A stretch of 64,000 bases of DNA. It comes from Longimicrobiales bacterium. GTDB taxonomy: Bacteria; Gemmatimonadota; Gemmatimonadetes; Longimicrobiales; Gaopeijiaceae. The DNA is taken from NCBI GenBank assembly GCA_958295645.1, contig OY282361.1:2694501-2758500 (forward strand), in the 5' to 3' direction. The translations under genes and the position numbers were made by a program. Below, in pieces: positions 14,273-62,683 of this stretch (position 1 is the first letter of the stretch; every line of letters begins with the position of its first letter). The notes under the pieces are model-generated. The model was given only the letters and a program-made list of their open reading frames with translations. It had not been told where the DNA came from and searched no databases.

Positions 14273-14564
14273 CTACGAGCTGGTGCGAGTGGTATCGGTG
14301 GTCGCGCCTTCAGGAAAAGCGTGACGACGGCGAACGGCGGCAATGTAACGAGAATCCACGCGAGCGAGCAAGGGCGTCGCGAGGTTGGGCCGATGAAGTC
14401 GCGGGTTCGGGGCTCTGATCCGGGAACGGTCGCGTACTGAGGCCGGAACTCGGCACAACGGTCGCGGGCCCGGATGTCCGGATAATGACCGCTGGCCGCC
14501 GAACGCCACGTTGAGAAGGGCGACATAGCGGCGAGGCTGGGCGGGGTGGGTCGTCGAGGAGAAG

Positions 14565-14648
14565 CGGAGGCGGAGGGACTCGAACCCCCAAGTGCTTGCG
14601 CACGCCGCATTTCGAGTGCGGTGCCTTACCAATTAGGACTACGCCTCC
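14565..14648 (-). tRNA. tRNA-Ser (CGA)
   Basis: Acceptor GGAGGCG pairs with CGCCTCC. The anticodon stem CCGCA/TGCGG holds loop CTCGAAA, anticodon CGA. A long variable arm (GTGC-GCAA-GCAC) and discriminator G fit serine. CCA is not encoded. Last gene of the tRNA array. Confidence 0.95.
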
Positions 14649-14697
14649 AGTTGTGCGGCGGCTGGCGATCCGCCGGAACGGCCTGTCGGCCAGAAAA

Positions 14698-14771
14698 TCG
14701 GGGCGCCCGGATTTGAACCGGGGACCTCTGCGACCCGAACGCAGCGCTCTACCGGGCTGAGCCACGCCCCG
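14698..14771 (-). tRNA. tRNA-Pro (CGG)
   Basis: Acceptor CGGGGCG pairs with CGCCCCG. The anticodon stem CTGCG/CGCAG holds loop TTCGGGT, anticodon CGG. Discriminator A; CCA is not encoded. Confidence 0.95.
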
Positions 14772-14843
14772 CCAGTTGTGTGTGAACCGCCGCGCTCCGG
14801 CAACTGCCAGCGAGATGGCCGGCGACCCCGCGGTTCCGTGGAG

Positions 14844-14927
14844 CGGACGGGGTGGGATTCGAACCCACGCGGGCAGATGCCCACACGATTTCCAGTCGTG
14901 CGCCTTAAGCCACTCGGCCACCCGTCC
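14844..14927 (-). tRNA. tRNA-Ser (GGA)
   Basis: Acceptor GGACGGG pairs with CCCGTCC. The anticodon stem CACGA/TCGTG holds loop CTGGAAA, anticodon GGA. Long variable arm (GGGCATCTGCCC), T-loop TTCGAAT, discriminator G. CCA is not encoded. Confidence 0.95.
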
Positions 14928-14968
14928 TTCAAGGCGCCGCGCGCAGGTCCGCCCGGCGTCTCGAAAAG

Positions 14969-15053
14969 CGGAGGGAGTGGGATTCGAACCCACGTGGTCC
15001 TAGGGACCAACGCCTTAGCAGGGCGCCGCTTTTAGCCGCTCAGCCATCCCTCC
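14969..15053 (-). tRNA. tRNA-Ser (GCT)
   Basis: Acceptor GGAGGGA pairs with TCCCTCC. The loop CTGCTAA gives anticodon GCT. Long variable arm (GGTCCCTAGGACC) and discriminator G mark serine. CCA is not encoded. Confidence 0.95.
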
Positions 15054-15057
15054 GAAG

Positions 15058-15130
15058 TAGCCCCGCCTGGGTTCGAACCAGGACTCTTCTGATCCAGAGT
15101 CAGACGTGTTGCCAATTACACCACGGGGCT
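15058..15130 (-). tRNA. tRNA-Gln (CTG)
   Basis: Acceptor AGCCCCG pairs with CGGGGCT. The anticodon stem TCTGA/TCAGA holds loop CTCTGGA, anticodon CTG. Discriminator A; CCA is not encoded. It starts only 4 bp after the 3' end of the next array member's spacer, so spacing here is very tight. Confidence 0.95.
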
Positions 15131-15148
15131 GTCCGCCGTCCTGCCGAG

Positions 15149-15221
15149 AGCCACCGGTCGGACTCGAACCGACGACCCCGTCATTACGAGTGACGTGCTC
15201 TACCAGCTGAGCTACGGTGGC
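15149..15221 (-). tRNA. tRNA-Thr (CGT)
   Basis: Acceptor GCCACCG pairs with CGGTGGC. The anticodon stem CGTCA/TGACG holds loop CTCGTAA, anticodon CGT. Discriminator T, as is common for threonine. CCA is not encoded. Confidence 0.95.
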
Positions 15222-15256
15222 GTCTCCGTCGCTTGCCTGCCGGCAAGGCCGGAAAA

Positions 15257-15329
15257 TGGAGCCGAGGGGAGTCGAACCCCTGACCTCAGCATTGCGAACG
15301 CTGCGCTCTCCCAACTGAGCTACGGCCCC
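15257..15329 (-). tRNA. tRNA-Ala (CGC)
   Basis: Acceptor GGGGCCG pairs with CGGCTCC, including the G3:T70 pair that identifies alanine. The loop TTCGCAA gives anticodon CGC. Discriminator A; CCA is not encoded. Confidence 0.95.
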
Positions 15330-15337
15330 TCTCGTCA

Positions 15338-15411
15338 TGGGCGCGACAGGACTCGAACCTGTGACCTCCACGATGTCAACGTGGCACTCTAACCAGCTGA
15401 GCTACGCGCCC
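15338..15411 (-). tRNA. tRNA-Val (GAC)
   Basis: Acceptor GGGCGCG pairs with CGCGCCC. The stem CCACG/CGTGG holds loop TTGACAT, anticodon GAC. Discriminator A; CCA is not encoded. Confidence 0.95.
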
Positions 15412-15507
15412 TTTCCGCGTTGCGGCCGCCGCAGGTTCTCTCCGGCAACCCGGCCTTTTCGTGCGACAACCCCACGGTGCTCTCCGGCTTCCGTCACTCT
15501 CGTCCCA

Positions 15508-15581
15508 TGCGCCCGGGAGGACTCGAACCCCCAACCCCCTGATCCGTAGTCAGGTACTCTATCCAATTGAGCTACGGGCGC
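15508..15581 (-). tRNA. tRNA-Arg (ACG)
   Basis: Acceptor GCGCCCG pairs with CGGGCGC. The stem CCTGA/TCAGG holds loop CTACGGA, anticodon ACG, whose A34 is normally deaminated to inosine by TadA. Discriminator A; CCA is not encoded. Confidence 0.95.
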
Positions 15582-15609
15582 GCCCGGCCGGCGCTTTCCG
15601 CCCCGGCCA

Positions 15610-15693
15610 TGCCCACGACAGGACTCGAACCTGTACGTCCTTTCGAACACTGGTCCCTCAAACCAGCCTGTCTACCAATTCCAGCACGTGGGC
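15610..15693 (-). tRNA. tRNA-Leu (GAG)
   Basis: Acceptor GCCCACG pairs with CGTGGGC. The stem CTGGT/ACCAG holds loop TTGAGGG, anticodon GAG. A long variable arm fits leucine. Discriminator A; CCA is not encoded. Confidence 0.95.
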
Positions 15694-15715
15694 GGCCACT
15701 TGTCCCCAAAAGGGA

Positions 15716-15800
15716 TGCTCGGGGAGGGACTCGAACCCTCACGGGGTTAACCCCCACAGGATCCTGAATCCTGCGCGTCTACCAATTCCGCCACCCGAGC
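15716..15800 (-). tRNA. tRNA-Leu (CAG)
   Basis: Acceptor GCTCGGG pairs with CCCGAGC. The stem CAGGA/TCCTG holds loop TTCAGGA, anticodon CAG. Long variable arm (GGGGGTTAACCCC). Discriminator A; CCA is not encoded. Confidence 0.95.
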
Positions 15801-15832
15801 TTCGGCCGGGCCAACGACCCGGCCACCGGCAG

Positions 15833-15905
15833 TGGAGCCGAGGGGAGTCGAACCCCTGACCTCCTGAATGCCATTCAGGCGCTCTCCCAACTGAGCTACG
15901 GCCCC
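15833..15905 (-). tRNA. tRNA-Ala (GGC)
   Basis: Same acceptor, D and T arms as the Ala(CGC) gene at 15257, again with G3:T70. The stem CCTGA/TCAGG holds loop ATGGCAT, anticodon GGC. Discriminator A; CCA is not encoded. Confidence 0.95.
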
Positions 15906-15966
15906 TGCCGGATGCGATGCGAGCCAGGAGCTCGCTCGACGACCCATCTTTTCAAACACCGCCTCA

Positions 15967-16041
15967 CGGGGCTGACGGGACTCGAACCCGCGGCCTCCGG
16001 TGTGACAGACCGGCACTCTAACCAAACTGAGCTACAGCCCC
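15967..16041 (-). tRNA. tRNA-Asp (GTC)
   Basis: Acceptor GGGGCTG pairs with CAGCCCC. The stem CCGGT/ACCGG holds loop CTGTCAC, anticodon GTC. Discriminator G, as expected for aspartate. CCA is not encoded. Confidence 0.95.
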
Positions 16042-16093
16042 TTGGCCCTCCTTCTTCCGGGGACCCCGGCCCCTCGCCACCAGGAGCCCCCGA

Positions 16094-16165
16094 TACCCTC
16101 ACGGGGAATCGAACCCCGATCTCCACCTTGAAAGAGTGGTGTCCTAACCGTTAGACGATGAGGGC
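16094..16165 (-). tRNA. tRNA-Glu (TTC)
   Basis: Acceptor GCCCTCA pairs with TGAGGGT (one G:T). The stem CCACT/GGTGG holds loop CTTTCAA, anticodon TTC. It is the only array member with a T in the wobble position. CCA is not encoded. Confidence 0.95.
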
Positions 16166-16176
16166 GCCCCTCGAGG

Positions 16177-16250
16177 CAGGCCCGGAGGGACTCGAACCCC
16201 CAACCGCCGGTTTTGGAGACCGGTGCTCTACCAAGTTGAGCTACGGACCT
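16177..16250 (-). tRNA. tRNA-Trp (CCA)
   Basis: Acceptor AGGTCCG pairs with CGGGCCT. The stem CCGGT/ACCGG holds loop CTCCAAA, anticodon CCA. Discriminator G, as expected for tryptophan. The 3' CCA end is not encoded. Confidence 0.95.
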
Positions 16251-16267
16251 GTTTGTCGCTTCCCGCA

Positions 16268-16340
16268 TGGCCAGGGGCGGAATTGAACCGCCGACACCGC
16301 GATTTTCAGTCGCGTGCTCTACCAACTGAGCTACCTGGCC
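16268..16340 (-). tRNA. tRNA-Phe (GAA)
   Basis: Acceptor GGCCAGG pairs with CCTGGCC. The stem CGCGA/TCGCG holds loop CTGAAAA, anticodon GAA. Discriminator A; CCA is not encoded. Confidence 0.95.
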
Positions 16341-16488
16341 AATCCCCCAAACCCTGCCGACAAAAAACCGACCGGGCTCGTTCCGGCCACGGCTCCAGCC
16401 ACCGCGCCCGTACCAGATCCCCTGGCCGGCCTAGCTCCGGCGCCGCCTCCCGCGCGGGCGACGATGCCGGATGTCCTCTTACGAGTCA

Positions 16489-16562
<74 letters not shown>

Positions 16563-58087: not shown

Positions 58088-61000
58088 TCATCTCGGCGGT
58101 CTCTTCGCAACCAGCGCGAACTCTCCTGCCGACCTGCAGAGCGCCGGCTGCGACGACGCGCTCGAACGCGGCGGCGAACTCGGCTGGCACGCGCCCGCCG
58201 GGCTGGGCCGCGAGCTTCGAGCCACTGGCCCGAACTGGATCTGCCCGTCAGGCCGAACGACGGCGCCGGCGAACACCGACGGCGCTCCGGAGTCCGGTCC
58301 GCGGGGCCGTCGTGCGACCGGCGCCCCCGCCGCCCGAAGACCCCCTGTCGCGGAAATCGCGAGCTTGAGCGCCGTCGAGCAGTTGTTGTCCACGTCCGAC
58401 TCGCCCTCCACCGGGTCCACGCACTCGCCCAGCCATACGACGGTCCCCGGCGGCGCCGACGAACTCACCGTCATGGAGGCGGTTCCCTGCACCGACTCGC
58501 CGGGGCCGAGCGCAGGCACAAGGGACGTCCCGCCCACCATCTCGTCCGAAGTCGTGACGACCGAGTCCGCCGACGCGAACGTCCGCACCCGCGTCGCAGG
58601 CGCCGCGGCGTCGCCTCGGTTGCGAATCTCCACCACGTACTCGAAGTTGCCTCCGGGCGCGACCGCCACGCTGTCGGGCGACACGCTCGCCACCAGGTCC
58701 GGCGAGCCCGTCACCGCCACCTTGATCGCCGTCGAGCAGTTGTTGTCCACGTCCGACTCGCCCTCCACCGGGTCCACGCACTCGCCCACCCACACGACGG
58801 TCCCCGGCGCCAGCGACGCACTCACCGCGAAGGTCGCGGCCCTGCTCGCCGACTCTCCCGGGCCGAGCGCCGGCACGCCGGACGCCTCGCCCACCTCGTC
58901 GTCCGACGTCGTGACGACCGAGTCCGCCGACACGAACGTCCGCACCCTCGTCGCAGGCGCCGCGACGTTGCCTTGGTTGCGGACTGCCGCCGCGTACTCG
59001 AAGCTGCCTCCGGGCGCGACCGCCACGCTGTCGGGCGACACGCTCGCCACCAGGTCCGGCGAGCCCGTCACCGCCACCTTGATCGCCGTCGAGCAGTTGT
59101 TGTCCACGTCCGACTCGCCCTCCACCGGGTCCACGCACTCGCCCACCCACACGACGGTCCCCGGCGCCAGCGACGCACTCACCGCGAAGGTCGCGGCCCT
59201 GCTCGCCGACTCTCCCGGGCCGAGCGCCGGCACGTCGGACGCCTCGCCCACCTCGTCGTCCGACGTCGTGACGACCGAGTCCGCCGACACGAACGTCCGC
59301 ACCCTCGTCGCAGGCGCCGCGACGTTGCCTTGGTTGCGGACTGCCGCCGCGTACTCGAAGCTGCCTCCGGGCGCGACCGTCACGCTGTCCGGCGACACGC
59401 TCGCCACTAGGTCCGGCGAGCCCACTACCGTCACCTTGAGCGCCGCCGAGCAGTTGTTGTCCACGTCCGACTCGCCCTCCACCGGGTCCACGCACTCGCC
59501 CACCCACATGACGGTCCCCGGCGACGCCGACGCACTCACCGCGAAGGTCGCGATCCTGCTCGCCGACTCCCCCGGGTCGAGCGCCGGCACGTCGGACGCC
59601 TCGCCCACCTCCTGGTCCGACGTCGTGACGACCGAGTCCGCCGACATGAACGTCCGCACTCGCGTCGCAGGCGCCGCCGCCGTCCCCTGGTTGCGGACCG
59701 CCGCCGCGTACTCGAAGCTGCCTCCGGGCGCGACCGCCACGCTGTCGGGCGACACGCTCGCCACCAGGTCCGGCGAGCCCGTCACCGCCACCTTGATCGC
59801 CGTCGAGCAGTTGTTGTCCACGTCCGACTCGCCCTCCACCGGGTCCACGCACTCGCCCACCCACACGACGGTCCCCGGCGCCAGCGACGCACTCACCGCG
59901 AAGGTCGCGGCCCTGCTCGCCGACTCTCCCGGGCCGAGCGCCGGCACGCCGGACGCCTCGCCCACCTCGTCGTCCGACGTCGTGACGACCGAGTCCGCCG
60001 ACACGAACGTCCGCACCCTCGTCGCAGGCGCCGCGACGTTGCCTTGGTTGCGGACTGCCGCCGCGTACTCGAAGCTGCCTCCGGGCGCGACCGTCACGCT
60101 GTCCGGCGACACGCTCGCCACTAGGTCCGGCGAGCCCACTACCGTCACCTTGAGCGCCGCCGAGCAGTTGTTGTCCACGTCCGACTCGCCCTCCACCGGG
60201 TCCACGCACTCGCCCACCCACATGACGGTCCCCGGCGACGCCGACGCACTCACCGCGAAGGTCGCGATCCTGCTCGCCGACTCCCCCGGGTCGAGCGCCG
60301 GCACGTCGGACGCCTCGCCCACCTCCTGGTCCGACGTCGTGACGACCGAGTCCGCCGACATGAACGTCCGCACCCTCGTCGCAGGCGCCGCGACGTTGGC
60401 CTTGGTTGCGGACTGCCGCCGCGTACTCGAAGCTGCCTCCGGGCGCGACCGTCACGCTGTCCGGCGACACGCTCGCCACTAGGTCCGGCGAGCCCACTAC
60501 CGTCACCTTGAGCGCCGCCGAGCAGTTGTTGTCCACGTCCGACTCGCCCTCCACCGGGTCCACGCACTCGCCCACCCACATGACGGTCCCCGGCGACGCC
60601 GACGCACTCACCGCGAAGGTCGCGATCCTGCTCGCCGACTCCCCCGGGTCGAGCGCCGGCACGTCGGACGCCTCGCCCACCTCCTGGTCCGACGTCGTGA
60701 CGACCGAGTCCGCCGACACGAACGTCCGCACCCTCGTCGCAGGCGCCGCGACGTTGCCTTGGTTGCGGACTGCCGCCGCGTACTCGAAGCTGCCTCCGGG
60801 CGCGACCGCCACGCTGTCCGGCGACACGCTCGCCACTAGGTCCGGCGAGCCCACTACCGTCACCTTGAGCGCCGCCGAGCAGTTGTTGTCCACGTCCGAC
60901 TCGCCCTCCACCGGGTCCACGCACTCGCCCACCCACACGACGGTCCCCGGCGCCAGCGACGCACTCACCGCGAAGGTCGCGGCCCTGCTCGCCGACTCGC

Positions 61001-61655
61001 CCGGGCCGAGCGCAGGCACGCCGGACGCCTCGCCCACCTCGTCGTCCGAGGTCGTGACGACCGAGTCCGCCGACATGAACGTCCGCACTCGCGTCGCAGG
61101 CGCAGCCGCCGTCCCCTGGTTGCGGACCGCCGCCGCGTACTCGAAGCTGCCTCCCGGCGCGACCGCCACGCTGTCGGGCGACACGCTCGCCACCAAGTCC
61201 GGCGAGCCCGTCACCGTCACGGCGAAGCTCAGGCTCGCCGTCAGCCCGCCCGGGTCCCGAGCCGTCACGGTGACCATGGCGGTTCCCAGCGCGACCGGCC
61301 GCACTGTCGCCACGGCGCCCGAGATGCTCGCCGCGGCCACGCCGCCGTCGCTCGACGAGACCGCGTACGACAACGCGTCGCCGTCCGGGTCCGCGAAGTT
61401 GCTCGCCACGTCCACCGTCGCCGCCGGCCCGCCCAGCGTCAGCGCCTGGCCGGGTATCGACCCCCGCGCCTCGGGCGCGCGGTTGGCCGGCGGTTCCGGG
61501 GGCGGCGGCTCAGTGCCCGAATCCCCCCCACAGGCTGCCAGAGTCGATGCAACAACAACGACCGCCCAGCACGGCCACCTTGTCCGGGTCACTGTCTCAA
61601 GTCGCTCATTGTCGTCCTTCGAGATCGCGAAGGCACTCACACCTCTGTTCGCCAT
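58088..61655 (-). pseudogene. CARDB-repeat lipoprotein with a 1-nt insertion
   Basis: From ATG 61655 the protein has a lipoprotein leader (WAVVVVASTLAAC, canonical lipobox LAAC), a linker, an Ig-like domain (ASNFADPDGDALSYAVSS) and eight tandem ~119-residue CARDB-type repeats (PDLVASVSPDSVAVAPGG ... WVGECVDPVEGESDVDNNC). The frame breaks at 60397-60400, where the repeat reads GACGTTGGCCTTGG instead of GACGTTGCCTTGG; the continuation in the second frame runs to a stop at 58088. Correcting that base gives ~1190 residues. Repeats are surface adhesion or assembly modules. The break is either phase variation, a real mutation, or an assembly error in identical repeats. It starts right after the OsmC gene stop. 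Confidence 0.8.
58351..61212 (-). repeat. eight 357-bp tandem repeats
   Basis: The landmark G(T/C)CGAGCAGTTGTTG occurs at 58374, 58731, 59088, 59445, 59802, 60159, 60517 and 60874: steps of exactly 357 bp except one of 358, which locates the 1-nt insertion. The units are nearly identical and fall into two or three subtypes that alternate, suggesting block duplication. Confidence 0.92.
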
Positions 61656-62123
61656 CTACGCTTCCCCCTCCACGGCCAGCTCGGTCGTGATGTCCACGCA
61701 TCCGATCAGCGTTCGGTAGACCGGGCAGCGAGCCGCGTGAATCTCGTGCGCTCGCCCGATGGCATCCGGGTCGGCGCGGCCGGCCTCGAGCCGGTACTTC
61801 ACGTGGATGCTGCGAATCGCCAGCACACCGTCGTCCTTGCCGATCTTGCCGGACACCTCCGCCGTCAGCTTGCCGCCCGACGCATCGATCCCGCGTGCCT
61901 CCAGCACGCCGCCCAGGGTTCCGACCAGTCAGCCGCCGGTGGCGGCCACCACGTAGTCGAGCGTCGTGGTGGTCTCGTTGTCTGGGCTGGCGCCGTAGTG
62001 GGCGGCGATTGGGCCGTGCACGCCGAACTCGACCGGCGCCTCGCGGGCCGGCAGATAGGCGAGCCGGTGCGGCCCGCGCGTGCGCTCGATGCGGACTTGG
62101 GACTCGTAGACGATGTCGCTCAT
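61656..62123 (-). CDS. OsmC-family protein, probable selenoprotein (in-frame TGA at the catalytic position)
   Basis: From ATG 62123 (ATGA overlap with the upstream gene) the frame reads 64 codons to ...LDYVVAATGG, then TGA (61931-61929), then continues without another stop for 90 codons: LVGTLGGVLEARGIDASGG ... AARCPVYRTLIGCVD. OsmC/Ohr peroxidases have their first catalytic Cys exactly here (xAAxGGC) and the second in the CPV block, which is present. Replacement of only the peroxidatic Cys by TGA, with intact sequence on both sides, points to selenocysteine. A hairpin suited to a SECIS follows. The product would be a 155-residue cytosolic hydroperoxide reductase-like protein. The alternative is a nonsense mutation. 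A gene caller would split it into two false genes. Confidence 0.8.
61893..61909 (-). promoter_or_regulatory. candidate bacterial SECIS hairpin
   Basis: Downstream of the in-frame TGA, GCGTGC-TGGAG-GCACGC forms a perfect 6-bp stem with a 5-nt loop containing GG. The loop begins 26 nt after the TGA, within the spacing range known for bacterial SECIS elements bound by SelB. Confidence 0.6.
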
Positions 62124-62683
62124 GCCGCGGGCCACAGCCATCCGAAGATGCCCGCCGTGAGAAGCGCGTACACGAAGCCGTCCAGGGCCTGCTTGACCGC
62201 GGCGCTTCGGGGCAACCCCATCCAAATGCTCTCCTGGACGCTGGAGAAGGCGTAGGCCAGGAACGTCGCGGGACCCACCGTGCCGAACACGGCCATGTAC
62301 TCGGCGCCCGGCCCGTGAGCGCCGATCGCGATGTAGGCCACCAGTGTCGCCACCACCGCGTTGAAGACGAACGACTTGACCATCGCGCCCTTCATGTTCA
62401 GCGCGGACTGGGGGTCGCGCACCCGAAGGATGCCGACCGGGCCGGCCGCCACCTTCTGCTGGTATTCCTCGCTCCGCTCCTCTCCCTGGTCGACGAAGGG
62501 GAAGTAGTACATGCCGGGCTTGGGCGCACAGCGCCGCACGGCGTCTGTCAGCCGGTCTTCGTCGTCGGCGCGGGCGAAGTCCGAGCGGTGGTGCGGCAAC
62601 ACCGTCCAGGCGAGCGCGCTTGCGACGAACACCACGGCGGCGGACACGAGTATCGGAAGCCAAAGGTCGGCCATCTCTACCAA
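62120..62683 (-). CDS. membrane protein of unknown function upstream of the OsmC selenoprotein
   Basis: The protein has 187 residues from TTG 62683, supported by AAGGAG seven bases upstream; ATG 62674 is a weaker alternative. An N-terminal helix (LPILVSAAVVFVASALAWTVL) precedes a soluble part with the notable MYYFPFVDQGEERSEEYQQ and GILRVRDPQSALNMKGAM, then three helices (FVFNAVVATLVAYIAIGAHG, GTVGPATFLAYAFSSVQ, GFVYALLTAGIFGWLWP). I recognise similar hypothetical proteins in environmental Acidobacteria/Gemmatimonadota only in general terms. Its stop overlaps the OsmC start. Confidence 0.65.
   Translation of the reverse strand: MVEMADLWLPILVSAAVVFVASALAWTVLPHHRSDFARADDEDRLTDAVRRCAPKPGMYYFPFVDQGEERSEEYQQKVAAGPVGILRVRDPQSALNMKGAMVKSFVFNAVVATLVAYIAIGAHGPGAEYMAVFGTVGPATFLAYAFSSVQESIWMGLPRSAAVKQALDGFVYALLTAGIFGWLWPAA

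Follow-up and report, generated by a model that had tools for sequence, protein, structure and literature searches.

A probable OsmC-type selenoprotein in a Longimicrobiales genome, from a subfamily that seems to carry only selenocysteine at its catalytic position

Does an in-frame TGA at the catalytic position of an osmC-like gene mark a broken gene or a selenocysteine (Sec) codon? The locus that raises this question lies in a 64,000-nucleotide stretch of DNA (hereafter the window; positions 2694501–2758500 of contig OY282361.1, assembly GCA_958295645.1) from a Longimicrobiales bacterium, whose genome is a single contig of 2,885,659 bases (2.89 Mb) that is about 96% complete. An earlier note, made from the letters of the window, had described an OsmC gene with one in-frame TGA at the column of the catalytic Cys, and this is confirmed by the frame itself, which runs on the minus strand from ATG at 62123 to TAG at 61658–61656, has its sole in-frame TGA at 61931–61929 and, once translated with Sec, gives a match to Pfam OsmC (PF02566) over residues 49–148 that spans the TGA (51.9 bits against a cut-off of 27.5; E 1e-13). 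The features concerned are as follows.

61656–62123, minus strand: putative gene for an osmC-like selenoprotein, 155 residues long when the TGA is read as Sec (residue 65)
61929–61931, minus strand: in-frame TGA, candidate codon for Sec at residue 65, aligned with the peroxidatic (catalytic) Cys of the OsmC family
61893–61909, minus strand: hairpin of the bacterial SECIS type, with a stem of 6 bp (GCGUGC/GCACGC) and the loop UGGAG (61903–61899)
61725–61727, minus strand: codon of Cys133 (in CPVY), the presumed resolving Cys
62120–62683, minus strand: upstream gene of 187 aa, apparently membrane-bound (hydrophobic stretches), its TTG start coming from the ORF finder only

The second half of the gene is as intact as the earlier note had it, with its second catalytic Cys in place: Sec65 and Cys133 (the second in a CP motif), which occupy the places of the family's peroxidatic and resolving residues, are invariant in 31 of 31 orthologues. 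When the window gene is compared with near relatives, third codon positions vary ~1.7 to 4 times more than first and second ones on both sides of the TGA, as expected for an osmC-like gene that would be under constraint along its whole length. Under translation table 11 the osmC frame ends at the TGA, so that standard annotation would shorten or drop the gene, as the earlier note had foreseen; apart from this one stop the frame is intact. It is this same stop that could speak for a pseudogene or a sequencing error, that is, for a TGA that truly ends translation or that is a miscalled base in an ordinary gene for a Cys-containing OsmC, a reading against which the conservation of the post-TGA frame as protein already argues.

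What decides the matter is the behaviour of the TGA in relatives. Among 58 genomes (that of the window and its relatives), 38 of 38 strong matches have exactly one TGA, and these split into two subfamilies: the window gene belongs to A, marked by CPVY, and another copy in its genome belongs to B, marked by CPTA. Every full-length profile match listed at E below 1e-26 in 298 Gemmatimonadota genomes also has one TGA, with a sharp gap below these matches before distant Cys-OsmC proteins appear at about E 1e-7, and the same is true of all column-spanning matches at E below 1e-19 in 297 Acidobacteriota genomes. A scan of contigs with peptide patterns that omit the Sec column yielded 380 confirmed loci, of which the best 80 were examined; one TGA was found in 80 of 80, always at the expected column, which was recognised by pattern in 78 and by eye in 2. 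By record title, which for MAGs can be wrong, the phyla and groups represented are Gemmatimonadota, Acidobacteriota, Chloroflexota, Poribacteria, Tectomicrobia, Nitrospiraceae and Desulfuromonadales. The TGA sits at the catalytic column in 135 of 135 loci inspected by sequence, some of them duplicates, whereas in the larger tables its position is deduced from there being a single TGA in each match. Relatives with TGC or TGT at this column, which the earlier note had named as the finding that would tell against Sec, were looked for, and no such Cys orthologue was found in the 58 genomes of the first comparison, the 298 Gemmatimonadota genomes, the 297 Acidobacteriota genomes or the best 80 of the 380 loci. 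A pseudogene or a sequencing error is thus refuted by the relatives that share the TGA, at the same column and in many independent assemblies from several phyla, and its probability is negligible. The Cys/Sec exchange that alignment with OsmC homologues was to reveal is present when the subfamily is set against distant OsmC proteins, but none is seen inside it.

Downstream of the TGA, the earlier note had proposed a SECIS-like hairpin with a 6-bp stem at a distance of 26 nt. The stem is borne out but the spacing is not, since in the hairpin (GCGTGC-TGGAG-GCACGC) the stem begins 19 nt and the loop 25 nt after the TGA. Its folding energy is -9.7 kcal/mol, with none of 200 shuffles as stable (z -3.5), whereas the 52-nt fold from the UGA onward is only as stable as its shuffles (z 0.04), so that it is the short stem with its covariation that speaks for the hairpin, and not how stable a long fold would be. 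Published constraints on bacterial SECIS elements ask for a loop of 3–9 nt with G in one of its first two positions, an upper stem of 4–16 bp, 16–37 nt from UGA to loop and a minimum free energy of at most -7.5 kcal/mol (PMC13188914), and the hairpin complies with all of them, having a 5-nt loop UGGAG (GGA if U and G pair) with G at position 2, 6 bp, 25 nt and the energy given above.

The covariation is visible across 102 distinct sequences, in which 99.2% of the cells of the stem are paired and 26 are double-change cells, against a maximum of 74.7% paired and a maximum of 2 double-change cells for control stems slid along the sequence, these counts not being independent because of shared ancestry among the sequences. 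The codons involved are telling: (i) when the 5' arm carries the Val codon GTG, the 3' arm has the Ala codon GCA (17 of 17), (ii) when the Val codon GTG is in the 3' arm, as in subfamily B, the 5' arm has the Ala codon GCA (9 of 10) and (iii) when Ala is in both arms, the codons are GCG and GCG (73 of 75). GCA is the rarest Ala codon in the long ORFs of the window. Each orientation of the GTG/GCA pair occurs in a different subfamily, so that the two probably arose separately. Such a covarying hairpin is strong evidence that selection acts on the RNA and, lying inside a coding region, offers natural data that are of use for studying SECIS constraints. Since both the TGA and the hairpin are kept in about 100 distinct relatives, chance is ruled out.

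If the gene were real, the earlier note had reasoned, the lineage should decode Sec. A genome-wide search bears this out, with selA, selB, selD and tRNA-Sec all present in the same genome as osmC: tRNA-Sec scores 79.5 bits and has the anticodon UCA, SelB 316.9 bits (a 722-aa ORF), SelA 471 bits and SelD 370 bits. The selD gene (2528068–2528988 of the contig) has an in-frame TGA of its own, in the motif GUACK, and SelD of this genome is probably itself a selenoprotein. Could TGA instead be read as Trp or another standard residue, through an altered code or a suppressor? Nothing beyond the frame that would be open under such a code favours this, and it is rejected, with a probability close to nil, on several grounds. 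TGA is the stop codon of both neighbours of osmC and of selA, and the tRNA-Trp found within the window has the anticodon CCA, so that TGA is not a general sense codon here; moreover, the tRNA with the anticodon UCA that was found is tRNA-Sec, and the TGA column is that of the catalytic Cys and is followed by a SECIS-type hairpin. Another reading accepts the recoding and has Cys instead of Sec inserted at the UGA in part of the protein, for example under selenium scarcity. Misloading of Cys at UGA has been described for some Sec systems, and nothing in the sequence bears on it in this case; we consider it most improbable.

The Sec machinery also keeps company with the gene in other genomes. Of the 298 Gemmatimonadota genomes, 90 have the TGA-containing osmC, and 88 of these 90 have a SelA match at E below 1e-20, against 133 of the 208 other genomes (Fisher P 1e-11, uncorrected for relatedness); the two genomes that have the gene and lack a SelA match are both assemblies in hundreds of contigs. 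For loci titled mostly as other phyla, SelA was found at E below 1e-40 in 18 of 19 genomes, in two cases only as fragments. Taken at the level of sequence, the gene in the window is very probably a real bacterial selenoprotein gene, encoding an OsmC-type antioxidant enzyme in which the reactive Cys is replaced by Sec.

What would such a protein do? An AlphaFold model built from 31 orthologues, with Sec entered as Cys, has a mean pLDDT of 94.6 and a pTM of 0.88, and the top of the Foldseek list consists entirely of OsmC/Ohr structures (probability 1.00, 12–19% identity), so that the protein can be predicted with confidence to adopt the OsmC/Ohr fold. It is likely, in our judgement, that the gene encodes a selenol peroxidase of this fold, with Sec inserted at the UGA and a chemistry based on Sec65 and Cys133. 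In outline, SelB with Sec-tRNA(Sec) would recognise the hairpin that closely follows the UGA, placing Sec at codon 65; Sec65 would then attack a hydroperoxide, probably an organic one, and become a selenenic acid, which Cys133 would resolve to a selenenylsulfide, to be recycled by a reductant of the lipoyl or thioredoxin type. What was computed here is the conservation of the recoding site, the conservation and covariation of the hairpin, the presence of the machinery and the fold, while Sec insertion and catalysis are inferred from established knowledge of bacterial Sec and of Ohr/OsmC. By analogy with Ohr/OsmC enzymes, peroxidatic and resolving roles for Sec65 and Cys133, respectively, are the best supported assignment, and peroxidase activity and substrate would follow by the same analogy, over a distance of 12–19% identity to characterised OsmC/Ohr proteins and with the cut-off of the peroxiredoxin family TIGR03562 failed.

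Because the protein is far from characterised peroxiredoxin subfamilies, a serious rival is that it is a true OsmC-fold selenoprotein with a reaction other than hydroperoxide reduction, such as a different redox or repair reaction of the selenol, possibly one linked to the apparent membrane protein encoded upstream. Its scores far below the curated cut-offs for OsmC peroxiredoxins and OsmC selenoproteins fit this idea, as does the low identity to solved OsmC/Ohr proteins, and the lack of any Cys orthologue in the genomes and loci searched hints at a requirement for selenium. The upstream gene, which overlaps osmC by ATGA and whose product has no Pfam or NCBIfam match, also speaks for it, in that it adjoins osmC in about 15 close relatives, but it is found there in close relatives only, not across the subfamily. 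Together with the invariance of Sec65 and Cys133 at the family's peroxidatic and resolving positions, this makes a different reaction rather unlikely, and a selenol peroxidase is the reading that we prefer.

Other features of the window deserve mention in their own right. Downstream of osmC is an ORF of 1135 aa with CARDB domains, whose ATG at 61655 comes right after the TAG of osmC and which contains eight near-identical tandem repeats of 357 bases (93% matches; window positions 58364–61220). Further away, 17 tRNA genes form a dense array on the minus strand within 2 kb (window positions 14564–16562).

The second TGA-containing osmC gene of the same genome offers a comparison close at hand.

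1651827–1652258 of the contig: second TGA-containing OsmC gene, subfamily B (locus L045)

This paralogue has in common with the window gene a single TGA at the same column and a SECIS hairpin at the same position, the arms of which (GCGCAC/GTGCGC) are the mirror of those in the window gene. It differs in being only about 41% identical at the protein level, in having CPTA instead of CPVY and in its own wide distribution. Both subfamilies seem, from the sequences compared, to be Sec-only, which is unusual. A bolder version of this idea is that Sec is obligatory in both of these paralogous OsmC subfamilies, in several bacterial phyla and without a Cys version anywhere, and that they may serve another function than ordinary OsmC/Ohr peroxidases do; this we hold as tentative and somewhat doubtful. 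If the Sec-only reading were true, selenium chemistry would be essential to the reaction and not an optional upgrade from Cys, and subfamily A would be a case for asking which chemistry needs selenium.

How do these proteins compare with known members of the superfamily? Escherichia coli OsmC (1nye, 1qwi) and Pseudomonas aeruginosa Ohr (1n2f), which are among the top Foldseek matches, have in common with the window protein the fold and both catalytic positions, but they have Cys at the first of these where Sec is expected here, and the identity is in the range given above. Against NCBIfam TIGR03562 (OsmC family peroxiredoxin) the window protein scores 21.6 bits, below the cut-off of 85.8. A named Sec-containing OsmC group of the same superfamily, NCBIfam NF041052 (OsmC_like_Se, OsmC-related (seleno)protein), was rejected on score as the family of the window gene, with 20.5 bits for the window protein and 27.3 for its paralogue against a cut-off of 95, which no genome in the Gemmatimonadota sample reaches. 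NF041052 falls so far short of recognising the window protein that many MAGs probably carry wrong annotations for this subfamily. NF041052-like matches with a TGA in other Gemmatimonadota (L167–L173) were considered as the same protein as that of the window and rejected; they form a third TGA-containing OsmC group, with the motif U-T/M-S-M-T and with CPVH. At one locus (L167, 704–1081; G302:C47:1003–1380), a gene of this third group is found just upstream of a subfamily A gene, giving two putative OsmC selenoproteins in tandem.

The earlier note was also right that OsmC-like selenoproteins are known from metagenomes. They have been reported since 2005, in the Sargasso Sea and GOS metagenomes (PMC1088965, PMC2398784), and appear as well in the lists of two other papers (PMC9312934, PMC13188914), the latter a 2026 inventory that gives their motif as UxxT; no paper describing the present subfamily was found in the open-licence literature. 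Like the window gene, the Sargasso/GOS protein belongs to the OsmC family (PF02566 / COG1765), with Sec in place of the redox-active Cys and a SECIS hairpin downstream of the UGA. It differs in its motif as published, UxxT versus U-L-V-G-T with Thr at +4 here, and in that the Sargasso family had Cys homologues, whereas none was found within the subfamily of the window gene. The OsmC-like selenoprotein is thus a kind already known, of which the window gene is a further member, and the most interesting feature of its subfamily is a distribution that is Sec-only and spans several phyla.
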